Shown here in pieces: positions 1 through 13,576 of a stretch of 13,576 nt of DNA; position 1 is the first letter of the stretch; each line of letters starts with the position of its first letter. This stretch comes from an uncultured cyanobacterium (lineage in GTDB: Bacteria > Cyanobacteriota > Vampirovibrionia > Gastranaerophilales > Gastranaerophilaceae), in the NCBI GenBank assembly GCA_947073895.1, contig CAMTNN010000023.1:1-13576 (forward strand). Reading direction: 5' to 3'. The notes beneath the pieces are model-generated. The model searched no databases. It was not told the DNA's origin and saw nothing but the letters and a program-made list of their open reading frames with translations. The translations under genes were made by a program, and so were the position numbers.

Positions 1-1
1 A

Positions 2-37
2 AAACGTCTTGAAGCTTTAGAAAAAATAAAAAATTAA
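2..37 (+). CDS. 3' end of an upstream gene (partial)
   Basis: Frame 2 reads KRLEALEKIKN and stops at TAA 35-37, directly before a hairpin and a rho-independent terminator. A lysine- and glutamate-rich helical tail followed by a terminator is what the end of a real gene looks like. Eleven residues are too few to name the product. It could also be chance, because the other frames close at once in this AT-rich stretch. Confidence 0.4.
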   Translation, partial: KRLEALEKIKN

Positions 38-39
38 TA

Positions 40-67
40 ATAAGTTGTTGCTACAAATACAACTTAT
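40..67 (+). other. Hairpin immediately upstream of terminator
   Basis: ATAAGTTGT (40-48) pairs perfectly with ACAACTTAT (59-67) across a 10-base loop. Its 3' arm abuts the first base of the terminator stem at 68, so the two helices could stack coaxially. It may help termination or protect the 3' end of the upstream mRNA. The pairing is seen directly; the role is inference. Confidence 0.5.
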
Positions 68-103
68 GGCTGCAGATAAAAAATCTGCAGCCTTTTTCTT
101 TTT
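68..103 (+). terminator. Rho-independent terminator
   Basis: GGCTGCAGAT (68-77) and ATCTGCAGCC (83-92) form a perfect 10-bp stem with an AAAAA loop. The T-rich tract TTTTTCTTTTT (93-103) follows. It ends transcription from the gene that stops at 37 and insulates the gene starting at 211. This is the clearest terminator in the window. Confidence 0.9.
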
Positions 104-210
104 ATATATGTAAATTTTTGTAACAATTTTCTTATAAAACCTAAAGATTTCGCCTTAATTAGCCGTAATACATAGAAAAGGGACAATTATAAAGGAAAGC
201 GATTTAAACT

Positions 211-1692
211 ATGGGAATGGCAGCATCACAAGGCAGATTCTTACAGCTTACAAGCCGCAAAAATGATATCGGTTTGCAGCTTACACGCCTTTCTAATGAA
301 AAGGTTACGCTTTCCCGTGAAATGAGAAAAGTATCATCTGATTATCGTGAATCTTTGAATACTAAAACTTTAAAATGGTCTAATAATGCAGGCGTATCTT
401 ATATTGACTTAAGTTATGCAAATTTAATGAAGCCAAGTGCAATGAACTTACAACAGCCTTATTTGTTAACCTCTTCAGCAGGTGCTGTCGTAATTGCAGC
501 AAATTATCAAAAATATGCTGAAATGATATCTCTAAACGGTACTGCAGGCGGAGATTATATGAGCAACAGAACTCAAATTCTTTCTGAACTAGCAGGTGTT
601 GATTCCACAAAATTAGAGTCATCTGCTTCTTATCAGGCTGACCTTGATGCTGCTCAGGCTAATTTAGATACTTTATACAATGAAAAAGAAAGAAATATTG
701 ATCCGCTTTTGAAAAAATGTAAAGGTGACGGGGGAACTGCAGGTTTGCTTAAAAATCTAGGTTCAACAACCGGCGGTGGAAGTTTTGACGGGGCAAACGA
801 TTGGGCGGATGCTTATAATAACGGTAAAACTATCAAGATTTCCGGTTCTTCCGAATTAACAGGAATCGGTAATCAGTTAAAATCTCTTGCAAAATTCTTC
901 CCTGATATTGATACAGAAAAGTTTAACAAAGGTATTGATAATACTATTTCAGGTTATCAAACTTCAATCGCAAACGGTGATGTTAGCGGCGCTGTAATAA
1001 ACGGTAAATCAGGAGAATATACAGTTAATGTAAAAGGTCTTGTTGAACAAGCATTATCAGCAGCAGGTGCTTCTGTTTCTGAAAGCAATGGATATACTGG
1101 TTCTAATAAAGTTAACTATGAATGGTATGATACTTCTAAATCCGGATATTCAGAATGGCAGAGTGCACATGATGCTTGGCATATCAAAGAAGAAGAAGGC
1201 CTTGCTCAGTATAGAGCTGCAGAAACTGCTCTTGCAGGGGTATTAACTGCTGATGAACAGAGTTTAATTGATTATTATGATGCAATTTTTACCGCAATAG
1301 CTGATAAAGGTTGGACTTATAATGAAAAAGTTACAGATAAAAATTATCTTAACGAAATGCTCCAGAATGGTACTTATACATTGACTACAATGCAAAAGAG
1401 TGTTTATGCTGACGGTCAAAATGATGATGGCTCTGCAAAGTTTGCTTATGAGTATTCAACAGATATTGCTGCAAACAATAAACATGTTTATACAGTCAAT
1501 GATACTGATGTTCAAAATTTGGCTCTTGAAGAATATGAACACAAAAAGAGTATCATTAATTCTAAGGAAACCAGAATTGATACCAGAATGAAGGATTTGG
1601 AAACTGAACAATCTGCAATTCAACAAATGCTTCAAGGTTTGGAACAAGTTAGAAACGATAATATTGAGCGCAACTTTAGTGTCTTCGGTTAA
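211..1692 (+). CDS. Hypothetical protein, MGMAASQ family, possible secreted axial or surface protein
   Basis: This 493-residue protein has no function I can name. Residues about 1-60 are predicted helical and charged (QLTRLSNEKVTLSREMRKV). The last 55 residues are another heptad-like helix ending DNIERNFSVFG. The middle is low in charge and rich in Gly, Ser, Asn and Tyr, with a glycine-rich stretch near residues 185-200. Helical ends around a variable core is the layout of flagellin, hook-associated and needle-type subunits, but I see no specific family motif. There is no cleavable signal peptide, so any export would need a dedicated system. The start MGMAASQ matches proteins I recall from gut Melainabacteria. 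AGGA near 194 lies rather far (about 14 nt) from the ATG. The gene sits alone behind a terminator, so it probably has its own promoter in 104-210, though I could not place one with confidence. Confidence 0.75.
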   Translation: MGMAASQGRFLQLTSRKNDIGLQLTRLSNEKVTLSREMRKVSSDYRESLNTKTLKWSNNAGVSYIDLSYANLMKPSAMNLQQPYLLTSSAGAVVIAANYQKYAEMISLNGTAGGDYMSNRTQILSELAGVDSTKLESSASYQADLDAAQANLDTLYNEKERNIDPLLKKCKGDGGTAGLLKNLGSTTGGGSFDGANDWADAYNNGKTIKISGSSELTGIGNQLKSLAKFFPDIDTEKFNKGIDNTISGYQTSIANGDVSGAVINGKSGEYTVNVKGLVEQALSAAGASVSESNGYTGSNKVNYEWYDTSKSGYSEWQSAHDAWHIKEEEGLAQYRAAETALAGVLTADEQSLIDYYDAIFTAIADKGWTYNEKVTDKNYLNEMLQNGTYTLTTMQKSVYADGQNDDGSAKFAYEYSTDIAANNKHVYTVNDTDVQNLALEEYEHKKSIINSKETRIDTRMKDLETEQSAIQQMLQGLEQVRNDNIERNFSVFG

Positions 1693-1739
1693 CATCTGAG
1701 CATGTTTGTGGTACCCTTGTGAAAAAGGGGTATTAACGG

Positions 1740-3131
1740 ATGTTTGAATCGTTATCAGATAAATTACAGGATATTATAGCCAAAACCTCCGGTCAGAGCG
1801 AGTTGACTCAGGAGAACATGCAAGATGCTTTAAGAGAGATTAGACGAGCTCTTTTAGAGGCGGATGTAAACTTGCGTGTAGTTAAGTCTTTTATTTCCAA
1901 TATAAAAGACAGAGCTGAGGGTGAAGATGTTGTAAGAGGGGTTAATCCTTCACAACAACTGGTCAAGATTGTTCATGATGAGTTGATTAATCTTTTAGGC
2001 AAAGACACAAATCCTCTGAATTTTTCAGGTAGCCCGTCTTTAATAATGATGTTGGGGCTTCAAGGAAGCGGTAAAACAACTTCTTCTGCTAAGCTGGCTG
2101 TTAAATTGAAAAAAGAAGGCAAGAATCCGCTTCTTGTAGCGTGTGACGTTTATCGTCCGGCTGCGATTACCCAGTTAAAGACATTGGGTGAACAAATCGG
2201 GGTTGAAGTTTTTTCACAAGACGGTACGGATGTTCAGGCGATTATCAGCAGTGCAATTAATTATGCTAAAGAAAAGAATTTTAATGTGTTGATTCTTGAT
2301 ACGGCTGGCCGTTTGCAGATTGATACTGAGATGATGGCTGAACTGTTATTGATTGACAGAGTCTTTAAACCTGCTGAAAAACTTCTTGTAATTGACTCTA
2401 TGACCGGTCAGGAAGCTGTTAATGTTGCTGAAAACTTTGATGCGCAACTTAGTATTACAGGGCTTGTACTTACTAAGCTTGATGGGGACTCTCGAGGCGG
2501 TGCGGCTTTGAGTATTGTTTACTGCACAGGTAAGCCTATTAAATTAACAGGTACAGGTGAAAAGCTTAATGCTCTGGAAGATTTTTATCCGCAAAGAATG
2601 GCAGATAGAATTCTGGGAATGGGTGATATTGTTTCACTTGTAGAACGTGCTCAAGAAGTTTTCGATGAAAAGACTACGCAGGAAATGGAAAAGAAAATGG
2701 CAAAAGCTGAATTTTCTTTCAATGATTTCTTGAAAATGCAGTCTCAGATGAAAATGTTTGGTTCAATGGACCAATTGTTGGGAATGATTCCGGGACTTAA
2801 AATTTCAAAAGATGACAGGCAGATGATTTCACACGAAGGTGAAAAGCAGTTTAAAAGAATTGAAGTCTTTATTCAGTCAATGACTCCAGAGGAACGCGAA
2901 CATCCTGAGCTGATGAATTCTTCTCGTAAAAAACGTATTGCTCAAGGTTCGGGGATTCCGCTGCATGACGTGAATATATTCATAAATCAGTTTGAGCAAA
3001 TGCGCAAAATGATGAAGGGTATGTCTGATTTGAAGTCCAGTATGGGCAAAATGGCAGGCAAATTTGGTGCTCAAGGTGCAGGTAAGCTTTCAATGCATCA
3101 GATGATGAAAAATATGAGGCGATTCAAGTGA
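1740..3131 (+). CDS. ffh: Signal recognition particle protein Ffh (SRP54 GTPase)
   Basis: Ffh is the GTPase and signal-sequence-binding subunit of the bacterial signal recognition particle. With 4.5S RNA and FtsY it targets nascent membrane proteins to the translocon. The 463 residues show the full family layout. The helical N domain covers about 1-90. The G domain has the P-loop GLQGSGKTT (106-114), DVYRPAA (136-142), DTAGR (187-191) and TKLDGD (245-250). The methionine-rich M domain covers about 325-463, with the RNA-binding block SRKKRIAQGSG near 395-405 and the finger-loop signature MDQLLGMIPG. Length is normal (E. coli Ffh is 453). AAGGGG about 9 nt upstream supports this ATG. The stop overlaps the pth start by 4 nt, so the two are translationally coupled. 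The usual rpsP-rimM-trmD neighbours are absent. Confidence 0.98.
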   Translation: MFESLSDKLQDIIAKTSGQSELTQENMQDALREIRRALLEADVNLRVVKSFISNIKDRAEGEDVVRGVNPSQQLVKIVHDELINLLGKDTNPLNFSGSPSLIMMLGLQGSGKTTSSAKLAVKLKKEGKNPLLVACDVYRPAAITQLKTLGEQIGVEVFSQDGTDVQAIISSAINYAKEKNFNVLILDTAGRLQIDTEMMAELLLIDRVFKPAEKLLVIDSMTGQEAVNVAENFDAQLSITGLVLTKLDGDSRGGAALSIVYCTGKPIKLTGTGEKLNALEDFYPQRMADRILGMGDIVSLVERAQEVFDEKTTQEMEKKMAKAEFSFNDFLKMQSQMKMFGSMDQLLGMIPGLKISKDDRQMISHEGEKQFKRIEVFIQSMTPEEREHPELMNSSRKKRIAQGSGIPLHDVNIFINQFEQMRKMMKGMSDLKSSMGKMAGKFGAQGAGKLSMHQMMKNMRRFK

Positions 3132-3685
3132 AGCTAATTGTCGGATTGGGTAATATCGGTAGTAAATACACATTCACAAGACATAATGTAGGATTTATGC
3201 TTGCGGATAGTATTGCGCTTAATAATAATCTGAATTTTCGCGAAAATTCGCGCTTGAAATGTCTTATGACAAATCTTCGTAACGGAGTGGATGATTATTT
3301 AATAATAAAACCAACCACTTTTATGAACCTATCGGGTGAAGCGGTTCGCGCAGTTATGGATTATTATAAGATTCCGATTGAGGATATCTTGATTGTATAT
3401 GATGATTTATCTTTGGAGCTTGGTAAAATCAGATTCCGCGCAAACGGTTCTGATGGCGGGCATAACGGGATAAAATCAGTTATACAGCATCTTGGGGCTA
3501 AAAATGTCGCAAGGTTAAAGATTGGGATTGGCCCACAGCCAAATCTTCCGTCAGAAGTATTTGTATTACAAAACTTCTCAAAAGAGGAACTTGAAAATTT
3601 AAAAGGTGTTTTATCAAATGCTAAAAACGGCATAGAATGTTTCTTTAAAGAAGGCATTGCTGTTGCGCAAAATAAATATAATTAG
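3128..3685 (+). CDS. pth: Peptidyl-tRNA hydrolase
   Basis: Pth cleaves the ester bond of peptidyl-tRNAs dropped by stalled ribosomes and recycles tRNA in the cytosol. The 185-residue protein (E. coli Pth is 194) carries the expected residues: VGLGN at 5-9, catalytic His19 in TRHNVGF, Asn67 in KPTTFMNLSGEAV, Asp92 in YDDLSLELGK and Asn113 in GGHNGIKS. The start is GTG at 3128, inside the ffh stop as GTGA, with GAGG about 9 nt upstream within the ffh coding sequence. No ATG alternative preserves the N-terminal strand MKLIVGLGN. Translation is therefore likely coupled to ffh. The next gene begins 11 nt after the stop. Confidence 0.97.
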   Translation: MKLIVGLGNIGSKYTFTRHNVGFMLADSIALNNNLNFRENSRLKCLMTNLRNGVDDYLIIKPTTFMNLSGEAVRAVMDYYKIPIEDILIVYDDLSLELGKIRFRANGSDGGHNGIKSVIQHLGAKNVARLKIGIGPQPNLPSEVFVLQNFSKEELENLKGVLSNAKNGIECFFKEGIAVAQNKYN

Positions 3686-3696
3686 GGGATAAGCGA

Positions 3697-4977
3697 ATGA
3701 AACTAGCAGAACAACTTGAAATGGATGAAAAATACGATGAGGCTTATGCCGAATACAGAAAAGAGCTTCCGAACAAACAGGGTGATGTGGAACTACTTAC
3801 AAAGCTTGGTCATCTGGCTTTGATTCTTGATAAAAAAGATGAGGCAAAAGCTTATTACGGAAGAATTCTTGAAGTTGATCCGCCAAATATTCTAGCGCAT
3901 GAGCAATTAATTGATTTATTTGTGCATGAAGATAAGTTTAAGTATTATCTTTTAAGAGGAAATTTACATTCGCTTCAGCAACAGTTTAGTCACGCTAAAA
4001 ATGATTACAGAAAAGCTATTGATGCTTCAAAAGATCAGACAGAGTCTCTTCCTGCCCGCTATTTATTTGCAGGACTTGCTGAAGGACAGGAAAAGTATCA
4101 GGAAGCTATTGATGAATATTTGAAAATTGTAGACTATGATGAAGAAAATCCAATTGCTTATTTGAAATTAGCAGAATTGTATGAAAAAACAGAAGGTATT
4201 GTTGCTTCAATAGAAATTCTTAGCCGTGGATATAACGATCATAAATTTGAAGGCTTTGATGAAATTCTTGCAGGATATTATATTAGAAACTCACAGCCTG
4301 ATAAAGCATTAGAGCTTACAAAAAGTGATTTAACAAAAGCTCGTGCGTTGATGGATTTGGACAGAAATGAAGAAGGATTTGAAATTTTAAACAGAGTTAG
4401 AGATTCATATAAAGACCAGCCGATTTTGCATTCGCTTTTGGCTCAATATTATTTCCAAAAAAATATGAAAGACGAGGCTTTTGCAGAGATTGACGAGTAC
4501 GCAAAGCTTGACCCTAATTCGCCTTTGATTTATCAAATGCGTGCTTTGATTTATGAAAAAGCAGGTGATTCGTTTAATGAACATATTAACTGGGGAAAAT
4601 TTAACATCTTAAAGGGTGAAAAAGATGTTGCGTTAAATGAGTTTTTAACAGCGTATCAGTTTAATAATTCAAATGCTGAGCTAATTGAAACTATTGCAGT
4701 ACAGCTTGAGGGGATGAAAGATTTTACAAAAGCGTGTGAATTCTATGAAAGATTAGTTGAATTAGAACCGAAAAATTCAAATGCGCTTCAAAAATTAGCT
4801 GTATTTAGAGATTCGATTGGTGATTACACAGGAGCTTTAGAGTATTTAGAAAGACTTAAGGCTGTAGATTCTCGCAATCAGTTTGTTGCTGATAATTACG
4901 AAAAATTTAAAGACAGAGCAGAAAACGGAATGGGTTTTGTTGCTATGTTAAAAAGTATTTTCGGCAAGAGAATGTAG
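3697..4977 (+). CDS. Tetratricopeptide repeat (TPR) protein
   Basis: This is a 426-residue, almost wholly helical protein built from TPR-like helix pairs. Clear units lie near residues 32-63 (ALILDKKDEAKAYYGRILEVDP), 83-113, 118-147, 245-273, 325-358 and 362-391. They show the usual spaced small/aromatic pattern and Asp-Pro after helix B. There is no signal peptide or membrane segment, so it is probably a cytosolic scaffold; the partner cannot be read from sequence. The C-terminus ends in a short basic amphipathic helix (MLKSIFGKRM). AGGGGAT overlapping the pth stop serves as ribosome binding site 11 nt downstream of that gene, giving an ffh-pth-TPR operon. I see no catalytic domain attached. 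A role in envelope assembly or protein targeting is guesswork from context. Confidence 0.85.
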   Translation: MKLAEQLEMDEKYDEAYAEYRKELPNKQGDVELLTKLGHLALILDKKDEAKAYYGRILEVDPPNILAHEQLIDLFVHEDKFKYYLLRGNLHSLQQQFSHAKNDYRKAIDASKDQTESLPARYLFAGLAEGQEKYQEAIDEYLKIVDYDEENPIAYLKLAELYEKTEGIVASIEILSRGYNDHKFEGFDEILAGYYIRNSQPDKALELTKSDLTKARALMDLDRNEEGFEILNRVRDSYKDQPILHSLLAQYYFQKNMKDEAFAEIDEYAKLDPNSPLIYQMRALIYEKAGDSFNEHINWGKFNILKGEKDVALNEFLTAYQFNNSNAELIETIAVQLEGMKDFTKACEFYERLVELEPKNSNALQKLAVFRDSIGDYTGALEYLERLKAVDSRNQFVADNYEKFKDRAENGMGFVAMLKSIFGKRM

Positions 4978-5007
4978 TTAGTTTTGATAACAAATATTAA
5001 GCTATTG

Positions 5008-5037
5008 TTTACTTAAATCCTATGTTTATTGTATTAT
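5008..5037 (+). promoter_or_regulatory. Candidate sigma-70 promoter for lpxI-lpxB
   Basis: In the 88-nt gap after the TPR gene, TTTACT (5008-5013, 4 of 6 to consensus) and TATTAT (5032-5037, 5 of 6) are separated by 18 nt. Transcription would begin near 5044, just before the GGAGG at 5050-5054. This would start a separate lipid A transcript with a very short leader. AT-rich DNA yields such matches by chance, so confidence is modest. Confidence 0.4.
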
Positions 5038-5065
5038 ATATGATATATTGGAGGATTTAAGAGTA

Positions 5066-5881
5066 ATGTCAACGGCTTTGGAACAAAAACAGGGATTGAT
5101 TGCAGGTGATGGGTTATTGCCTGTAAAAATGGCGCAGTATGCTAAAGAAAACGGATTTGATGTTGTAGCAATTTCGCTTTCTAATGATAACTGTTCGCAG
5201 TTAAAAAAATATTGTTCTAAAGTTTATTCATTTTGTCCTGGAGAAGTTCAAAAGATTGAAGATGCTCTTAAGGAAGAAGGGATTAAACAGATTACATTTT
5301 TAGGCAAAGTTAATAAAACAGTTCTTCTTAAACGCCCTAAGTTTGACGCGCGTGCTGTAGAGTTCATTAAAAAAGCAATTCGTCTTAATGATGATAAAGT
5401 TATGCTTATGATTATTGAAGAGCTTGAGAAGATTGGTATTACGATTTTAGATCAAACTTTGTTTATAAAAAATCTTATGATTCCGTCAGGAGTGTTGGGT
5501 AAAGTTCAACCGACTCAGGAACAGGTTGACGATGTTAATTACGGATACTGGCTTGCAAAAGAAAGCGGAAAGCTTGATATCGGACAGTCAGTTGTTATTA
5601 AAGATAAAATGATTATGGCTGTAGAAGCTATCGAGGGTACTGATAAATGTATCAAACGCGGTTGTAAAATTGCAAAGAAGAATTCAAGAGTGGTTAAGGT
5701 GGCAAAACCTCATCAGGATAAGCGTTTTGATATTCCTGCAATCGGGCTTCGTACTCTTAAGACAATGAAAAAATATAAGGCAGATTTAATAGCGGTGGAA
5801 GCCGGTGAAACAATTATTGTTGATCAGGAAGAAGTTATTAAGTATGCAAATAAGCATAATATTGTAGTAATGGCAGTTTAG
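5066..5881 (+). CDS. lpxI: UDP-2,3-diacylglucosamine pyrophosphatase LpxI
   Basis: LpxI hydrolyses UDP-2,3-diacylglucosamine to 2,3-diacylglucosamine-1-phosphate (lipid X) and UMP, the fourth step of lipid A synthesis. It replaces LpxH in many non-gamma-proteobacteria. The 271 residues match the family at both ends. The N-terminal block is GLIAGDGLLPV (10-20). The C-terminal catalytic half has EGTD at 190-193, KPHQDKRFDIP (about 214-224), AIGLRTL and AVEAGETIIVD. An in-frame TTG at 5048 would add six residues, but it is part of the GGAGG (5050-5054) that fits as ribosome binding site for ATG 5066, so I chose the latter. The product feeds directly to LpxB, encoded 3 nt downstream. Two Cys residues (DKCIKRGC) near the active region are noted without a known role. 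Confidence 0.95.
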   Translation: MSTALEQKQGLIAGDGLLPVKMAQYAKENGFDVVAISLSNDNCSQLKKYCSKVYSFCPGEVQKIEDALKEEGIKQITFLGKVNKTVLLKRPKFDARAVEFIKKAIRLNDDKVMLMIIEELEKIGITILDQTLFIKNLMIPSGVLGKVQPTQEQVDDVNYGYWLAKESGKLDIGQSVVIKDKMIMAVEAIEGTDKCIKRGCKIAKKNSRVVKVAKPHQDKRFDIPAIGLRTLKTMKKYKADLIAVEAGETIIVDQEEVIKYANKHNIVVMAV

Positions 5882-5884
5882 TGT

Positions 5885-7009
5885 ATGAAAAAAGTTTTTG
5901 TTATAACAGGCGAATATTCGGGAGATATTCATGCCGGTCGTGTGTTAGAGATTCTTAAATCCCAAAATCCTGATATTGAGGTTCAAGGGATTGGCGGAGA
6001 TAATCTCAAGAATGCAGGTGCTACTCTTTTTTGTGACCATTCCAAGATGGCGGCTTTTGGTTTTAATTTCAAAATGGCAATTGAGCATTTGCAATTGGAA
6101 AAAAATGTTTGTGAATATATTTTAGAAGAGTATAAACCTGATTTAGTTTTGTTAATTGACTACGGTACTTTTAATTTGCGTGTAGCAAAAAGGCTTAAAG
6201 GTAAAGGGATTAAAGTTTTTCATTATATTCCACCTCAGGTTTGGGCGAGTCGGAAATGGCGAATAAAAGGGATAAAGAAGTGTGTTGATAAAGTGCTTTG
6301 TATATTCCCGTTTGAAGTAGAAATGTATAAAAAAGAAGGTATTGATGTTCATTTTTGCGGTCATCCTCTGATAAAGCAGCTTCCTGATAAAGCGAATAAA
6401 GAAGAGTTTTTTGCAAAACACGGACTGGATATTAATCGTCCGCTTGTTTCTGTTTTCCCAGGCTCAAGACCGATTGAACTTTTTTATCTTGCAGATACTT
6501 TTATTAAATCAGCTAAAGTTTTGCAGAAAAAACATCCTGAATTACAGTTCTGTATTTCGCATGCTCCGAATTTGAGCGATAAGATTTTTGATAAATATAT
6601 TAAAGATACAGATTTTAAGGTTATTAAGGGTGAAAACCATGCACTGTTGAGCGTGTCTGATTCATTGATTCTTGCATCAGGTACGGTTGCTTTGGAAGCG
6701 TCTTTATATCAAACTCCTATGATAATCGGATATCAAGGACCTTGGTTTATTTATCTTGTTTATTTATTGGTAAGATGTATAAAAAATGTGTCTTTGCCAA
6801 ATATTATTACAGGAAAAGACATTGTTCCGGAACTTGTTCAGGCTAAGTTTAATATTGATAATATCTGCTACGAAACAGAGAAGCTATTGTACAACAAGGA
6901 ACATAGGGAAAAAACAATCTCTGAATTGGGTTCTGTAAGAGAATGTTTGACTGACAAGTATTCGGCAGAAGAAGTTGCAAATTGTATTTTAGCCGAACTT
7001 ACTGATTAA
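5885..7009 (+). CDS. lpxB: Lipid-A-disaccharide synthase LpxB
   Basis: LpxB is a GT19 glycosyltransferase on the inner face of the cytoplasmic membrane. It joins lipid X to UDP-2,3-diacylglucosamine to form the lipid A disaccharide. The 374 residues (E. coli 382) show ITGEYSGDIHAG (7-18), IDYGTFN (91-97), YIPPQVWASRKWRIK, FPFE (141-144), GHPL (159-162), FPGSRPIE (191-198), SGTVALEASLYQTPMIIGY and PNIITGKDIVPELVQ. The loop IDYGTFN differs from the proteobacterial IDAPDFN at a position where an Asp is considered important in E. coli. Other phyla also vary here. The 3-nt gap after lpxI and the lack of a good separate ribosome binding site suggest translational coupling. Finding lpxI and lpxB side by side implies that the host makes lipid A and is diderm. 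Confidence 0.97.
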   Translation: MKKVFVITGEYSGDIHAGRVLEILKSQNPDIEVQGIGGDNLKNAGATLFCDHSKMAAFGFNFKMAIEHLQLEKNVCEYILEEYKPDLVLLIDYGTFNLRVAKRLKGKGIKVFHYIPPQVWASRKWRIKGIKKCVDKVLCIFPFEVEMYKKEGIDVHFCGHPLIKQLPDKANKEEFFAKHGLDINRPLVSVFPGSRPIELFYLADTFIKSAKVLQKKHPELQFCISHAPNLSDKIFDKYIKDTDFKVIKGENHALLSVSDSLILASGTVALEASLYQTPMIIGYQGPWFIYLVYLLVRCIKNVSLPNIITGKDIVPELVQAKFNIDNICYETEKLLYNKEHREKTISELGSVRECLTDKYSAEEVANCILAELTD

Positions 7010-7015
7010 ACTCTT

Positions 7016-7041
7016 TTCTTTGTGTTAAAATAATCAAAGAA
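7016..7041 (+). promoter_or_regulatory. Small hairpin abutting the ribosome binding site of the amylase-like gene
   Basis: TTCTTTG (7016-7022) pairs with CAAAGAA (7035-7041) over a 12-nt AT-rich loop. The 3' arm ends at the base before GGAGGGG (7042-7048). There is no T tract, so it is not a classical terminator. It could tune translation or mark an mRNA processing point between lpxB and the next gene. It is weak and may be chance. Confidence 0.3.
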
Positions 7042-7051
7042 GGAGGGGATA

Positions 7052-8560
7052 ATGAAAAATAAAATTCTTACAGTGTTAGTAGCATTTTTTGCCCTGACTT
7101 CAAGTGTGTTTGCTCAAGACGGACTTCGTACGATGTTTGTGAATAACAAGGCTGTTATTTGCGGAATAAATATCCGTAACTTTAATGCAAAAGATACTAA
7201 CGGTAACGGAATTATAGATAATAACGAAGAAAGCGGAAATTTTATTAACGCGGTTGAACGTCTTGATGAAATTCAAGCTGCGGGGATAAATGTTTTACAT
7301 GTGCTTCCTATTACTCCAGTAGGTAAGTTAAAATCATTGGGGACTGCGGGGTCTTTGTATGCTATCGCTGATTTTGATTCTATTAATCATCAGCTTGTTG
7401 ATTTAACTTCAGAAATGACTCCTATGGAGCAGGCTAAATATTTTGTAGATGAATGCCATAAACGCGGAATTAAGGTTGTAATTGATCTTCCGAGTTGCGG
7501 CAGTTATGATTTGTTCTTAACAAATCCTGAGTTATTTATAAAAGACAAAAAACAACTTTCTGTTGTGCCAACTGATTGGACTGATGTAAGACTTTTAAAT
7601 ACAGGTAACGATGAAAGCTTAAATCAAGATGTTTTGGATGTTCATAAACGATTTGTTGATATGGTTATGGATATCGGAGCTGATGGTATAAGAGCTGATG
7701 TCGCAACTATAAAACCGTTTAAGTTCTGGCAGGAAATAATTAATTATTCAAGAGAACGTAATCCGGAATTTTTATATTTGGCAGAGGCGTCTGATTCTTG
7801 GAGAGAGCCTCCTTCTAAGTATGCAGAGTTTACTCCGTATGACAAATTGTTTTCAGCAGGTTTTGACGGATATTACGGCAGCTTCTTCGGGCTTAAGGAT
7901 TGGAAAACAGCAGACGAGCTATATGAACATGTAAAATTTAATAAAAAACTTTTGACATCTTATCCTGAGAGCAAAGGTGTGATAATGTCGTTTACGACAC
8001 ATGATGAAACAAGTCCTATTATTTTAAAAGGCGAAAATCTTTCTGTTATGATGTGCTGGCTAGAAGCAACCTTGCCGTTCAATCCTTACTTTATAGATGG
8101 ATTTCAATTCGGCGATGATTATATTTACCCTTGGGCGAATACTAAAGCTTGTTTTACGGAAACAGATGATGATTATTATTTTGTTCACAGAGGAAAATTA
8201 GATATTTTTAATTATTCAAGAAGACCGCAAGGGAATAATGATTTAGTTAAAACTAATTTTAAGAATGCGTTTGAGTTTAGAAAAAATAATCTTGATTTAG
8301 TAACAAAAGGAACTTGGTCACCGATTAAAACTGATAAGCCTTCTGTATTTGCTTATACAAGAAGCTATCAAGGTGAAACAATCCTTGTTGTCGGAAATTT
8401 GGATTATAAACATACACAAAAGCGTGTTAAAATAAAAGTTGCAGGAATTAAGAAAGACGAAGTCCTTGAAATGATACAAGGGCAAGATATTTGCAAAACT
8501 CGCAAAAATAAAATCTTTGTTGATTTAGAAGCGGGACAGATTAGAGTATTTAAGATTTAA
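7052..8560 (+). CDS. Exported GH13 alpha-amylase-family protein
   Basis: This 502-residue protein has a Sec signal peptide (MKNKILTVLVAFFALTSSVFA, cleavage likely after residue 21, before QDG), so it acts in the periplasm or outside. It has a GH13 (beta/alpha)8 barrel. DTNGNGIIDNNE at 48-59 occupies the place of the family's DxNxDG metal loop and reads like an EF-hand loop. VVIDLPSCG (142-150) is region I, GIRADVA has putative nucleophile Asp216 with Arg214, LYLAEAS has acid/base Glu245, and FTTHDET has His317/Asp318. The catalytic triad is thus complete, but region I lacks the usual Asn-His that contacts the -1 sugar. A beta-sandwich C-terminal domain follows from about residue 415. The substrate is presumably an alpha-glucan or alpha-glucoside, unproven. 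A strong GGAGGGG precedes the ATG. It lies between lpxB and trpS. Confidence 0.85.
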   Translation: MKNKILTVLVAFFALTSSVFAQDGLRTMFVNNKAVICGINIRNFNAKDTNGNGIIDNNEESGNFINAVERLDEIQAAGINVLHVLPITPVGKLKSLGTAGSLYAIADFDSINHQLVDLTSEMTPMEQAKYFVDECHKRGIKVVIDLPSCGSYDLFLTNPELFIKDKKQLSVVPTDWTDVRLLNTGNDESLNQDVLDVHKRFVDMVMDIGADGIRADVATIKPFKFWQEIINYSRERNPEFLYLAEASDSWREPPSKYAEFTPYDKLFSAGFDGYYGSFFGLKDWKTADELYEHVKFNKKLLTSYPESKGVIMSFTTHDETSPIILKGENLSVMMCWLEATLPFNPYFIDGFQFGDDYIYPWANTKACFTETDDDYYFVHRGKLDIFNYSRRPQGNNDLVKTNFKNAFEFRKNNLDLVTKGTWSPIKTDKPSVFAYTRSYQGETILVVGNLDYKHTQKRVKIKVAGIKKDEVLEMIQGQDICKTRKNKIFVDLEAGQIRVFKI

Positions 8561-8572
8561 CGAGGTATATAT

Positions 8573-9571
8573 ATGCAAAGAATGGTATCAGGAATGCGTT
8601 CCACAGGAAAATTACACTTAGGACATTATTTGGGTGTAATAGATAACTGGCTTAAACTCCAAAATGAGTATGAGTGTTATTTCTTTATTGCGGACTGGCA
8701 TGCTCTGACTACTAAATATGACAAAACAGAAAATCTTAAACAAGATGTTTTGGAAGTTGCAATGGACTGGCTTGCTTGCGGAATTGACCCTGAAAAATCT
8801 ACGATTTATGTTCAATCACAAGTTCCTGAGATTGCGGAACTTCATATTTATTTAAGTATGATTACACCTCAAAACTGGGTAGAGCGTGATCCGACCTTGA
8901 AGGATATGGCAAAGATTCTTAAATCAAAAGAGGGTATGGCTTCTCAAATTAACTATGGCTTAATGGGCTATCCTGTTTTGATGTCAGCTGATATTATGAT
9001 GTTTAATGCCGATTTTGTACCGGTAGGTATTGATCAGGTTGCTCACGTTGAGTTGACCAGAGATATTACAAGAAGATTTAATAATATCTATAACACAGAT
9101 TTCTTCCATGAAGCTCAGCCAAAATTGAACGAATGTTCTTTGATTTGCGGTTTAGACGGAAACAAAATGGGTAAATCTTTTAATAATGATATTAAAATTT
9201 CTGATACCGCAGAAGTTACAGCTAAAAAAGTTATGTCAGCTATAACCGATAGAAGCAGAATGAGAAAAGATGACCCGGGTCATCCTGAGGATTGCGAAGT
9301 AGCTTACAAATATTGGAAGATATTTGGCTCAGAAGAAGAAGTTGAAACTGTAAAATGTGAATGCGAAAAAGGTGCTCGCGGATGTGCTGATTGCAAACGC
9401 CAGTTAGGTGCAAAAATCAATGAACGATTTGCAGAAATTCGTGAACGCAGACGTTATTACGAAGAACATCCTGAAATTGTAAAACAAATTCTTGCAGAAG
9501 GTTCTGCTAAAGCTCGTATTGAAGCTCAAAAAATATTAAAAGAAGTTAAAAGCTTGATTGGAATGTACTAG
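8573..9571 (+). CDS. trpS: Tryptophanyl-tRNA synthetase with Fe-S-type cysteine motif
   Basis: TrpRS charges tRNA-Trp with tryptophan in the cytosol as a class Ic dimer. The 332 residues (B. subtilis 330) include the HIGH motif as KLHLGHYLG (13-21) and the KMSKS motif as KMGKS (198-202). Between them are the specificity segments MGYPVLMSADIMMF and VGIDQVAHVELTRD. The anticodon-binding C-terminal half carries Cys241, Cys264, Cys271 and Cys274. Their spacing C-x22-C-x6-C-x2-C is the one I recall for the [4Fe-4S]-bearing TrpRS of Thermotoga maritima. An extra Cys262 is also present. The gene starts 12 nt after the amylase-like stop with GAGG upstream, so it is likely co-transcribed. I see no T-box leader or trp attenuator. 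Confidence 0.97.
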   Translation: MQRMVSGMRSTGKLHLGHYLGVIDNWLKLQNEYECYFFIADWHALTTKYDKTENLKQDVLEVAMDWLACGIDPEKSTIYVQSQVPEIAELHIYLSMITPQNWVERDPTLKDMAKILKSKEGMASQINYGLMGYPVLMSADIMMFNADFVPVGIDQVAHVELTRDITRRFNNIYNTDFFHEAQPKLNECSLICGLDGNKMGKSFNNDIKISDTAEVTAKKVMSAITDRSRMRKDDPGHPEDCEVAYKYWKIFGSEEEVETVKCECEKGARGCADCKRQLGAKINERFAEIRERRRYYEEHPEIVKQILAEGSAKARIEAQKILKEVKSLIGMY

Positions 9572-9593
9572 CAAAAAATATTTTTACGTTACT

Positions 9594-9599
9594 TATAAT
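9594..9599 (+). promoter_or_regulatory. Possible -10 element before the L,D-transpeptidase gene
   Basis: A perfect TATAAT lies 3 nt before ATG 9603, and no Shine-Dalgarno sequence is visible there. No convincing -35 is present at 17 nt. If active, transcription would begin around 9606, favouring a leaderless or short-leader message starting at ATG 9612 or 9621. It may be chance in an AT-rich gap. Confidence 0.2.
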
Positions 9600-9602
9600 A
9601 GT

Positions 9603-10199
9603 ATGAAAATAATGAATACTATGCGTACATTTGCAATTGCAGCTGTTGCTGCAGCACCTTTATTATCGACTCCTGTTTATTCTCAAACTCAAAAACAGGA
9701 CACATTTGAACATTCAATTCCTGCATCAGGCAGTTCTAAGTTTAATGCACTTGTAGGTGCGCCGTCTGCCAAAATCACAATAGCAGGAGTTGAGCGAAAC
9801 GCTGTTATTGTTGTTGATTTGAGTAAAAATGTTTTATATAAATACGATAAAGATGGACATCCTGAAACCGCTTACCTTGTCGCTAGTGGGAAAAAGTCTT
9901 CTCCCACTGATGAGGGAGTCAGAATTGTTACGCATATTGAATCGTATCCTTATAAAACCGCTTATGGAACGAAAAGAAAAAGGAATCCAAAGGCTTATGG
10001 TCCAAAGATTGTTTGTTTGAATAAAATTGACCCGAAAACCGGTGTTCAATCCAATACAGGAGAATTTATCCATGGAAACAATGACCCTTCAAGTATCGGC
10101 AAATATGCTTCTCTAGGTTGTATCAGAATGGATAATGATGTTATTAAAAAGCTTTCGCAAGAAGTAAAACGCGGTGATATCGTTATTATCCAAAAATAG
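9603..10199 (+). CDS. Exported L,D-transpeptidase (YkuD domain)
   Basis: YkuD-family L,D-transpeptidases form 3-3 cross-links in peptidoglycan or anchor proteins to it, using a Cys-His pair in the periplasm. With the start at 9603 the protein has 198 residues. It has a signal peptide (hydrophobic core FAIAAVAAAPLL, likely cleavage after VYS) and a domain beginning near ITIAGVERNAVIVVDLSKN. The signature FIHGNNDPSSIGKYASLGC follows, then IRMDN. His157 and Cys173 are the catalytic pair. An upstream in-frame ATG at 9558 lies inside trpS and puts charged residues before the signal peptide, so I rejected it. ATG 9612 and 9621 are also possible. No clear ribosome binding site is seen. The 3' end overlaps the convergent minus-strand gene by 14 nt, with no terminator between them. 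Confidence 0.93.
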   Translation: MKIMNTMRTFAIAAVAAAPLLSTPVYSQTQKQDTFEHSIPASGSSKFNALVGAPSAKITIAGVERNAVIVVDLSKNVLYKYDKDGHPETAYLVASGKKSSPTDEGVRIVTHIESYPYKTAYGTKRKRNPKAYGPKIVCLNKIDPKTGVQSNTGEFIHGNNDPSSIGKYASLGCIRMDNDVIKKLSQEVKRGDIVIIQK

Positions 10200-11175
10200 A
10201 TTTTAGTAATTTTATCAAATCATCTTTATTATATCTTCCGTGAATAATCATATCTGCAGAATTTGGGTTTAACGGGATTAATTTTTCCATATATTCATTT
10301 GAAGCTTTCAAATCTTTTTCAGCCTGTTCTGTTTTAACTCCGCTTTGGGCAGCTCTGTCAATAAAACTCTTTTGTCTTGTTTCAGCAGGAACTTCTACTC
10401 TTAAAATCAAATCAGCCAGCTTTTCTATTTCAGGAAACTGGGTTTGAAGCCCTTCTATAAAAATATACTTGCTGCTTTTGACTTCTTCTGATTTTGGGTA
10501 AACTATTCCTGTTGAAAAATCAGTAACAGGTGTTTTAACATCATTTCCGTTTCTCAACTCTGTAATATCTTCTTTTAGCTGGTCAAGATTAATCCTGTGT
10601 GTTCCGTTTGCAAGATTGTCTTCAAAAATATCTTTTAGTCCGATTTCTTTGTGTTCACACATAGCATGATAGAATGGTGAATTAAAAAATGTTTTTACGG
10701 GCTTTTTCTTTGGAGCTTCAAAAACTTCTATTTTGGAATTATTTAGCCATTCATTATTTTCTGCATTATAAATATCCGGTTTAATATTTAAATTAGGATT
10801 TTCTTTTTGACCATTAATTACCGATTCAAACCATTGTTTTGCCCGTCCGAATGGCCCAAAATCTTCATAACCAAACCAGAATTCTTGTTGAGTATTCGCA
10901 ACACTGCAATCGGTTTTAGCAAAACCATTCAAGGTACTTTCTATAACCATTTTGAATCCTGAAAGGATTTTTGTCAGCTGCCCGTGTTGGTTTTGCTGGT
11001 ACCAATCGATAATATCGGATTTAAAATTGATTTCAATGATATCATCTGCTGTTCCAACTTTGCTTGCCAGTTTTTGAAGCTCCGCGGTTTCATAATCTTT
11101 TAATAACTTTTTCCCGCTGATGAGCAAATTTGCATTGAAACTCGGGCTTGTGTTTCTTAAGCTATTTAATTCCAT
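10186..11175 (-). CDS. Hypothetical protein with uridine kinase/phosphoribulokinase-like C-terminal half, no P-loop
   Basis: This 329-residue protein begins at ATG 11175, 14 nt inside the upstream CoaD-like gene; a further in-frame ATG at 11262 would overlap that gene too deeply. Residues about 193-314 read like the C-terminal part of the uridine kinase/PRK fold. RINLDQLKEDITELRNG parallels the FDHP..LL..L..L..G stretch. KTPVTDFSTG parallels PxYDFxT. KYIFIEGLQT parallels vvivEGi. LADLILRVEVPAETRQ parallels DlkifVdtdaDtR, and SADMIIHG matches the terminal ADiii. No GxxxxGK[ST] Walker A exists anywhere in the protein, so it may be a catalytically dead or divergent kinase. The first 100 residues (LRNTSPSFNANLLISGKKL onward) are unrecognised. 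They resemble, by recollection only, N-terminal segments recurring in gut Melainabacteria proteins. No signal peptide is seen. Confidence 0.7.
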   Translation of the reverse strand: MELNSLRNTSPSFNANLLISGKKLLKDYETAELQKLASKVGTADDIIEINFKSDIIDWYQQNQHGQLTKILSGFKMVIESTLNGFAKTDCSVANTQQEFWFGYEDFGPFGRAKQWFESVINGQKENPNLNIKPDIYNAENNEWLNNSKIEVFEAPKKKPVKTFFNSPFYHAMCEHKEIGLKDIFEDNLANGTHRINLDQLKEDITELRNGNDVKTPVTDFSTGIVYPKSEEVKSSKYIFIEGLQTQFPEIEKLADLILRVEVPAETRQKSFIDRAAQSGVKTEQAEKDLKASNEYMEKLIPLNPNSADMIIHGRYNKDDLIKLLKSIFG

Positions 11176-11530
11176 TTTTGAAATGCTCCTGAATAAATTT
11201 ATTAACAGCATCTGGAACCATTTTGCTAATATCCAGACCTTTTGCAATGTTTTCTCTAACAATTGTTGCAGAAAGTCTCTCTGCGTTTGGAGCTTCAGGT
11301 AGAATGATTGTTGTTAAATCAGAGTTAATAGATCGATTAAATTGTGCTAGATCTTGTTCAAATTGAAATTCATCCTTCTCACGAGCGCCACGTAAAATAA
11401 ATGTTATTCCATGTTCGCGAGCGTAATCTCCCGTAAGTCCTTCATAGTAATCGACTTTTATATTAGGATAATCTTTTAAACTAATCAATAAGTCAGCATA
11501 ATCCACATGACTTCTTAGTCTTTTCCTCAT
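11162..11530 (-). pseudogene. coaD: CoaD-like nucleotidyltransferase, N-terminally truncated at the composition junction
   Basis: The 122 residues align by eye with the C-terminal two thirds of pantetheine-phosphate adenylyltransferase (CoaD, about 160 aa), which makes dephospho-CoA from phosphopantetheine. YPNIKVDYYEGLTGDYAREH corresponds to LPNVEV..FSGLLVDYAREK. FILRGAREKDEFQFEQDLAQFNR corresponds to vIvRGLRavsDFEYEfQmA.mNr. LSATIVREN stands where SSSLVKE normally is. The first ~50 residues with the PGSFDPITNGH (HxGH) nucleotide-binding motif are missing, and an in-frame TAA directly precedes the ATG. The apparent start MRKRLRSH is therefore not native. Only about 100 nt separate it from the next gene, too little to encode the lost part in any frame. 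It overlaps the downstream gene by 14 nt. A specialised CoaD paralogue is possible because the RG-R block deviates. Confidence 0.7.
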
Positions 11531-11549
11531 TTATCCTATATTTCTTCAT
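11493..11549 (-). other. Short divergent open frame at the junction
   Basis: On the minus strand, ATG at 11549 is preceded by GGGGAGA and opens MKKYRINEEKTKK before stopping at 11493. It looks like the first codons of a gene divergent from the one at 11632, with the stop reached only after the sequence has become the CoaD-like gene. If so, the join lies between about 11500 and 11549. The frame is short and could be chance. Confidence 0.3.
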
Positions 11550-11591
11550 AGATTTCTCCCCTTTTTCTTTCTTTTTTCTCATAAGAAAGAA
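11500..11591. other. Composition and lineage junction
   Basis: Left of this stretch the codon use is AT-rich and the reading frame is a truncated CoaD-like gene. Right of it lies a GC-richer Bacteroides-type gene with its own promoter. Two unrelated backgrounds meet here without any integrase, transposase, tRNA or recognisable attachment site. An assembly chimera or a recent rearrangement explains this; the sequence alone cannot separate them. Confidence 0.65.
11565..11591. repeat. 9-bp perfect inverted repeat upstream of the acyl-CoA synthetase
   Basis: TTCTTTCTT (11565-11573) and AAGAAAGAA (11583-11591) are exact inverted copies around a 9-base spacer, ending where the TATATTTG promoter element begins. 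It could be an operator or hairpin for the gene at 11632, or a structure associated with the join. It is not followed by a T tract on either strand, so it is not a terminator. Confidence 0.5.
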
Positions 11592-11599
11592 TATATTTG
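11592..11599 (+). promoter_or_regulatory. Bacteroides-type -7 promoter element
   Basis: TATATTTG matches the Bacteroidetes -7 consensus TAnnTTTG exactly and lies 32 nt before ATG 11632. The expected -33 TTTG is not clear, only TTTC within the inverted repeat. The A-rich leader without a Shine-Dalgarno sequence is also typical of Bacteroides. This supports the right-hand segment starting before about 11590. Confidence 0.45.
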
Positions 11600-11631
11600 T
11601 ATCCTAGTTTAAACGAAAACCAAAGCATGAT

Positions 11632-13576
11632 ATGATAACAACCCAGTTGCTTCGTCCTGAAAGCATTGTCGTAGTAGGGGCATCGAATAATGTGCATAAG
11701 CCGGGTGGCGCAATATTAAAGAATTTGATAAACGGAGGTTATCAGGGAGAACTCCGGGCGGTGAACCCGAAGGAGACAGAAGTGCAGGGAGTTCCCGCCT
11801 TTGCGGATGTGAATGATCTGCCGGACACAGATCTGGCGGTGTTGGCTGTGCCTGCCTCGATGTGTCCTGATATGGTGGAAACATTGGCCAGCAAGAAACA
11901 AACCAGGGCATTTATCATACTTTCGGCTGGCTTTGGTGAAGAAACTTACGAAGGAGCACTGTTGGAAGAACGTATTTTGGAAACAGTCAATAAATACGGG
12001 GCTTCGTTGATTGGTCCGAACTGCATCGGATTGATGAATACATGGCATCATAGCGTGTTCAGCCAGCCTATTCCTAATCTGAATATGAAAGGAGTGGATT
12101 TAATCTCCAGTTCCGGTGCTACGGCGGTATTTATCCTCGAGAGTGCCGTAACCAAAGGCTTGCAGTTCAATTCCGTCTGGTCGGTGGGAAACGCCAAGCA
12201 GATTGGTGTGGAGGATGTACTGCAATTCATGGATGAGAACTTCGACCCTGAGAAAGACTCCCATATCAAACTACTCTATATTGAAAGTATTCAGAATCCG
12301 GACAGATTATTGTTTCATGCTTCTTCCTTGATAAGAAAAGGATGTAAAATTGCAGCGATAAAGGCAGGAAGTTCTGAAAGTGGAAGTCGTGCGGCTTCTT
12401 CACATACGGGAGCTATTGCCAGTTCCGATTCTGCTGTTGAGGCTTTGTTCCGTAAAGCGGGGATTGTGCGCTGTTTCTCCCGTGAAGAACTGACCACCGT
12501 TGGCTGTGTATTTACTCTGCCTGGATTGAGAGGAAAGAACTTCGCCATTATCACACATGCCGGAGGGCCGGGAGTGATGTTGACAGACGCACTAAGCAAA
12601 GGCGGGTTGAATGTGCCGAGGCTCGAAGGCGAACTGACGGAAGAACTGAAAGTGCAACTTTTCCCCGGTGCTACTGTTGGAAACCCGATTGATATTCTTG
12701 CTACGGGAACTCCCGAACACCTGCGCCTCTGCATTGATTACTGCGAAGAGAAATTTGAAAATATAGATGCCATGATGGCTATCTTCGGAACACCGGGATT
12801 GGTCACCATGTTTGAGATGTATGACGTGCTTCATGAGAAGATGCAGGTTTGCAGCAAACCGATTTTCCCGATCCTGCCTTCCATCAATACCGCCGGAGCG
12901 GAGGTTGCGGCATTTTTGGCGAAAGGACACGTGAACTTTGCAGATGAAGTGACACTCGGGACGGCCCTTTCGCGTATTGTCAATGCTCCTAAACCGGCAG
13001 TCCCAAAAATAGAACTGTTCGGAGTAGACGTGCCGAGAATTCGCCGCATTATTGATTCTATCCCTCAAGATGGATATATCGAACCCCACCAGGTACAGGC
13101 TTTGCTTCATGCAGCCGGCATTTCTCTTGTAGATGAATTCGTTTCGGATAACAAGGAAGAAGTAGTCGCTTTCGCCCGCCGATGTGGTTTCCCGGTAGTG
13201 GCAAAGGTCGTTGGCCCCGTACATAAATCGGATGTTGGCGGAGTGGTATTGAACATCAAAAGTGAGCAACATCTGGCTTTGGAGTTTGAACGTATGATGC
13301 AGATTGCTGACGCGAAGGCAATCATGGTGCAACCTATGCTAAGAGGTACGGAACTCTTTATTGGTGCGAAGTATGAAGAGAAGTTCGGGCATGTAGTGCT
13401 TTGTGGTCTGGGAGGTATCTTTGTGGAAGTATTGAAAGATGTATCTTCCGGTTTGGCTCCGCTTTCTTACGAAGAGGCTTATTCAATGATTCATTCATTA
13501 CGCGCCTATAAGATAATCCAGGGGACACGCGGACAGAAAGGAGTGAATGAGGATAAATTTGCGGAAATTATAGTCC
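11632..13576 (+). CDS. ADP-forming acyl/acetyl-CoA synthetase, Bacteroides-type (3' partial)
   Basis: This enzyme family (acetate--CoA ligase, ADP-forming) converts acyl-CoA, ADP and phosphate to acid, CoA and ATP, conserving energy from fermentation. The frame is open for 648 codons to the window edge; relatives I recall are about 690 residues, so only some 40 are missing. The layout is an N-terminal CoA-binding Rossmann domain (SIVVVGASNN, residues 11-20), a succinyl-CoA-ligase-like domain with ISSSGA and the phospho-histidine motif SSHTGA (His258), and a C-terminal ATP-grasp domain with GFPVVAKVVGPVHKSDVGG (His531). An ATG at 11627 hits a stop after two codons, so ATG 11632 (MITTQLLRPES) is the start, as in Bacteroides homologues I recall. 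GC content and codon use differ sharply from genes to the left. The real product should be cytosolic. Confidence 0.93.
   Translation, partial: MITTQLLRPESIVVVGASNNVHKPGGAILKNLINGGYQGELRAVNPKETEVQGVPAFADVNDLPDTDLAVLAVPASMCPDMVETLASKKQTRAFIILSAGFGEETYEGALLEERILETVNKYGASLIGPNCIGLMNTWHHSVFSQPIPNLNMKGVDLISSSGATAVFILESAVTKGLQFNSVWSVGNAKQIGVEDVLQFMDENFDPEKDSHIKLLYIESIQNPDRLLFHASSLIRKGCKIAAIKAGSSESGSRAASSHTGAIASSDSAVEALFRKAGIVRCFSREELTTVGCVFTLPGLRGKNFAIITHAGGPGVMLTDALSKGGLNVPRLEGELTEELKVQLFPGATVGNPIDILATGTPEHLRLCIDYCEEKFENIDAMMAIFGTPGLVTMFEMYDVLHEKMQVCSKPIFPILPSINTAGAEVAAFLAKGHVNFADEVTLGTALSRIVNAPKPAVPKIELFGVDVPRIRRIIDSIPQDGYIEPHQVQALLHAAGISLVDEFVSDNKEEVVAFARRCGFPVVAKVVGPVHKSDVGGVVLNIKSEQHLALEFERMMQIADAKAIMVQPMLRGTELFIGAKYEEKFGHVVLCGLGGIFVEVLKDVSSGLAPLSYEEAYSMIHSLRAYKIIQGTRGQKGVNEDKFAEIIV

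Follow-up and report, generated by a model that had tools for sequence, protein, structure and literature searches.

The window analysed here is the complete contig C23 (13,576 nt) of the draft genome G000, which comprises 1.52 Mb in 210 contigs and is 83.6% complete. A long block of low-GC genes runs into a cut coaD-like gene on the minus strand, and is followed by a shorter stretch of Bacteroides-type DNA with a ligase-type gene that is interrupted by the contig end (Table 1).

Table 1. Features of the window, with the observations that support each assignment
Feature	Position (nt)	Strand	Basis
Native low-GC block of G000 (ffh, pth, TPR, lpxI, lpxB, amylase-like, trpS, L,D-transpeptidase, kinase-like gene, coaD-like 3´ part)	1–11476		GC, GC3, Pfam, NCBIfam; relatives in the genus for the coaD-like and kinase-like proteins
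C-terminal 104 codons of the second, CoaD-like gene	11165–11476	−	89/104 residues identical to P0002 residues 74–177
Join; stretch compatible with both sources	11465–11478 (at most 11457–11478)		Identical to Bacteroides genome G102 from 11465 on; KDYPNIK encoded by 11456–11476
Spurious first 16–18 codons of the 122-aa ORF	11477–11530	−	Bacteroides intergenic sequence read as codons, the final two or three of which may be ambiguous
Bacteroides intergenic region upstream of the ligase gene	11479–11631	+	Alignment with Bacteroides loci; TATATTTG at 11592–11599
Tract following G102	11602–12048	+	63/66 differing sites
Bacteroides ADP-forming acetate–CoA ligase-type gene, cut by the contig end	11632–13575	+	Protein identity, Pfam domains
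Tract following B. acidifaciens (L003/L170)	12066–13576	+	242/256 differing sites

The first-pass annotation had described an abrupt change of lineage at about 11.5 kb, and this change is confirmed by both composition and homology. The GC content is 35.3% over positions 1–11478 and 47.7% in the right-hand gene, while GC3 ranges from 0.18 to 0.35 across the 11 left genes, against 0.47 for the right gene. The G/C counts previously given for two 60-base lines (31 in the line from 12361 and 16 in that from 7921) were reproduced by a recount. Composition by itself is a weak sign of the switch and cannot prove it, since the ranges of the 60-mers overlap (11–30 G/C on the left, n = 190; 20–38 on the right, n = 32). 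By homology, the two sides of the breakpoint match different genomes. The left side groups with the rest of the draft genome and with its genus, through relatives of the coaD-like and kinase-like proteins, and a separate search of the right side, as had been suggested, returned Bacteroides by named matches.

On the right side, the protein encoded by 11632–13575 is 98% identical to those of an uncultured Bacteroides (L002) and of B. acidifaciens DSM 15896 (L003). It contains the Pfam domains of an ADP-forming acetate–CoA ligase, with all NCBIfam matches below their cut-offs. The Bacteroides homology starts upstream of this gene and takes in intergenic DNA, where TATATTTG, which we take to be the Bacteroides −7 element, is unchanged across eight aligned sequences. 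At the DNA level, 11485–13576 is 95% identical to L003. A single Bacteroides genome as the source of the whole tail was ruled out among the 158 compared, the best two of which reached 95% and none more. In one Bacteroides genome, the equivalent of 11485–11795 occurs again as an extra 311-nt copy (93%; G184:C1:1300763–1301073), in addition to the full-length copy.

On the left side, the block ends in a 122-aa ORF (11165–11530, minus strand). A search with its 11165–11485 part returned seven proteins, including that of the window itself. The best of the others, P0002 (177 aa), scores 122 bits against the CoaD model TIGR01510, above the cut-off of 103.3. The ORF is CoaD-like from about K19 (11476) leftwards, and the residues before this point had no convincing counterpart in the six relatives when the proteins were aligned. 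The truncated gene reported at this edge of the block does exist, whereas the end assigned to it does not hold, the CoaD-like part stopping at about 11476. Since G000 carries another coaD gene on contig C29 (37% identical to P0002), the gene cut at the join is a second CoaD-like copy.

The position of the join was narrowed by extending the Bacteroides homology leftwards. It reaches 11485 in B. acidifaciens (L003) and B. xylanisolvens (L005), and 11457 in B. congonensis (L004) and in the Bacteroides genome G102. Combined with the end of CoaD-like sequence near 11476, these limits place the join at about 11465–11478. The change of lineage had been located at 11493–11631; the switch itself stands, and its join is moved 15–28 nt further left. 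G102 shares an exact run of 35 nt with the window (11465–11499) and 21 of the 22 bases at 11457–11478, the only mismatch being at 11464, and identity drops to 8/30 to the left of 11457. The conserved CoaD residues KDYPNIK, which the ORF shares with P0002, are encoded by 11456–11476. A stretch of about 12–22 nt is thus compatible with both sources, as judged for the coaD side from the protein only; its upper length requires a T at 11464, which is present in B. congonensis (L172). Among the 11,434 22-mers of the left block, the best match to the G102 stretch was 17 bases and the mean was 6.5, while no more than nine exact bases were obtained when the left block and the G102 locus were paired at random 400,000 times. 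A 30-nt word across the join had no matches in viral contigs.

The 5´ end that is missing from the coaD-like gene was found elsewhere in the same assembly. When the contigs of G000 were searched with P0002 (E up to 10), three places were matched: C23 itself (residues 72–176), the other coaD on C29, and positions 2–76 of contig C169. The last of these encodes, on its minus strand, P0002 residues 1–25 at 92% identity (23/25; E = 3.3e-10). C169 is 3204 nt long, and its coaD-like gene runs off the first base. The two pieces do not overlap, with about 48 codons between them left unassembled, and their orientation is consistent: C23 would run to 11476, and C169 would take over at its base 1 after some 144 missing nt. 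Identity, position and orientation together suggest that they belong to one gene, and on the chromosome C23 and C169 are probably adjacent, separated by about 144 nt. The genes that follow coaD on C169 are a kinase-like one (weak matches only), der and a glyceraldehyde-3-phosphate dehydrogenase gene, of which the end is present. C169 has a GC content of 33.3%, being native-type DNA up to its edge. The chromosome most likely runs on into C169 and not into Bacteroides, and this probable neighbourhood marks the Bacteroides tail as spurious. Decay of the coaD-like gene was ruled out as the origin of the truncation by the 5´ piece on C169, together with several relatives of 144–186 aa.

Two coaD-type genes are therefore carried by G000 (C29 and C23/C169); among 57 genomes searched, two matches were obtained only in G000 and G045. 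A second coaD-like gene is rare in the genus. In 65 genomes of the genus, no relative of P0002 apart from C23 exceeds 44% identity (E ≤ 1e-30), so that none of these independent genomes can be used to confirm the neighbourhood of C23 and C169. Around coaD in relatives, tblastn of 19 loci, which are short (2.3–3.3 kb), matched coaD only.

These sequence comparisons, together with the lost start of the gene lying at the edge of a second G000 contig, which favours a mistake of assembly, lead us to regard C23, with very high confidence, as a chimeric contig, in which Bacteroides DNA would have been joined by error to the contig of an unrelated gut bacterium. The lineage switch is present in the sequence, but almost certainly absent from any living genome. 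It can be proposed that a metagenome assembler working with short words (de Bruijn-type) traced the low-GC bacterium's coaD-like gene as far as the stretch of about 12–22 nt that also occurs upstream of the Bacteroides acetate–CoA ligase gene. From there it would have taken the Bacteroides path, crossing entangled sequences of several related Bacteroides species before it halted at 13576. A false overlap of this length would be one that a short-word assembler can follow, and we infer both the word size and that the join was made by the assembler rather than during library preparation. The foreign piece sits at the end of C23, and the genome's own copy of the ligase gene lies on contig C42, 34% identical to the copy on C23.

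Against a chimera, it may be noted that the bin does not appear contaminated overall. When G000 was probed with 11.6 kb of Bacteroides DNA (L003), C23 was the only contig to match. The SusC model TIGR04056 had no match in G000, while its control was positive in four of 14 genomes, Bacteroides ihuae among them, with one of the 14 over the cut-off. General Bacteroides contamination of G000 is thus unsupported. Moreover, misassemblies are called relatively rare in the GUNC paper (PMC8201837).

Further support for a misassembled contig comes from the tail itself, which follows different Bacteroides genomes along its length. The 150-nt blocks over 11757–12056 are 99% identical to G102 and 81–83% to B. 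acidifaciens, whereas those over 12057–12356 are 100% identical to B. acidifaciens and 85–87% to G102. At sites where the two references differ, the window agrees with B. acidifaciens at 15/16 in 11500–11551, before the G102 tract and the second B. acidifaciens tract listed in Table 1. Each switch of source lies within a segment (15, 50 and 17 nt) that is identical in the two references. Over 12357–12656 the MAG L169 is closer (99%) than B. acidifaciens (92–94%), pointing to a possible further source. For this comparison, 10 of the 12 fetched loci were used (L179 and L180 were left out), and the 27 sites at 11457–11484 were excluded from the count because the B. acidifaciens row began at 11485. 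The tail at 11500–13576 is therefore a mosaic of at least two species-level Bacteroides sources. One of the 158 genomes (G176) carries the 36-nt word across the 12049–12065 switch with one mismatch, being 78% identical overall. The mosaic is supporting evidence only, since natural recombination among Bacteroides could produce one too.

The first-pass annotation had ranked a chimeric contig above a recent transfer between gut phyla, and this order is supported by the 5´ piece at the edge of C169, the join stretch compatible with both sources and the mosaic tail. In a transfer, illegitimate recombination, which could also make use of a short shared stretch, would have brought Bacteroides DNA into the low-GC bacterium's coaD-like gene, and the 95% DNA identity of the tail to Bacteroides would fit a recent event. 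However, the remainder of the interrupted gene lies on another native contig, and the insert itself would need to be a mosaic of species. Native DNA was not found on both sides of the foreign segment: C23 stops inside the Bacteroides gene, leaving the piece with no far boundary, and C169 is native-type to its edge. As had been remarked from the letters, a mobility gene is missing: a Pfam scan of 10 window proteins showed none. Of the 65 genomes of the genus, 53 have a ligase-type match at E ≤ 1e-30, and all copies besides that of C23 are at most 37% identical; none of the 65 shows the same arrangement, and the join-spanning 122-aa protein was found on one contig, C23. Given the piece on C169 and the distance of the genus copies, a recent transfer was rejected as highly improbable. 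A variant in which a real Bacteroides insertion occurs at strain level in part of the population, with C169 and C23 stemming respectively from intact and interrupted versions that coexist in the sample, is given just as slight a chance. As evidence of gene transfer, the switch is most likely without value.

It could also be considered that the two DNAs were physically joined during library preparation or amplification, a process that would likewise act at a short shared stretch. Such a molecule would be rare among the reads and, by itself, leaves unexplained both the mosaic tail and a C169 that ends in the same gene, which makes this origin every bit as improbable as a transfer. The join is better attributed to the assembler.

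The case of C23 corresponds to an inter-genome misassembly (chimeric contig) as defined in PMC8201837 and PMC11261854, with two reference lineages flanking one breakpoint. Nothing of substance differs, and C23 adds a findable other piece of the gene and a mosaic foreign tail. In the mock data of PMC11261854, chimeric contigs per genome amounted to 22.15 with megahit and 2.63 with SPAdes. With recent transfers between gut phyla, C23 shares high-identity DNA of one phylum beside that of another lineage. It differs from them in that neither an element nor a far boundary was seen and that the interrupted gene continues on a native contig. C23 matters only as a caution: left uncorrected, it would credit a species of a different lineage with a Bacteroides gene and point to a transfer that is false, while the false 122-aa protein (P0001) is already in the protein collection searched. 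Seeking the lost part of a cut gene at the contig edges of the same genome offers a cheap test for such joins where reads are lacking.

Finally, kinase-like genes flank the second coaD-like gene on both sides. The one in the window (10189–11175, minus strand) aligns with uridine kinase/phosphoribulokinase models over their later part only, and that on C169 (L141:142–1437) has weak matches to kinase models near its start. A similar NN..F.AK stretch (e.g. MRIQNNYTNPSFNAKG, MRVQSIQSNNPNFNAKL) was observed at or near the start of proteins that are otherwise unlike, including kinase-like, CoaD-like and short proteins of the genus (window 11112–11175, minus; L141:2–76, minus; L199:203–601; L200:164–616; L201:194–601). 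This stretch may represent a lineage-specific N-terminal tag.
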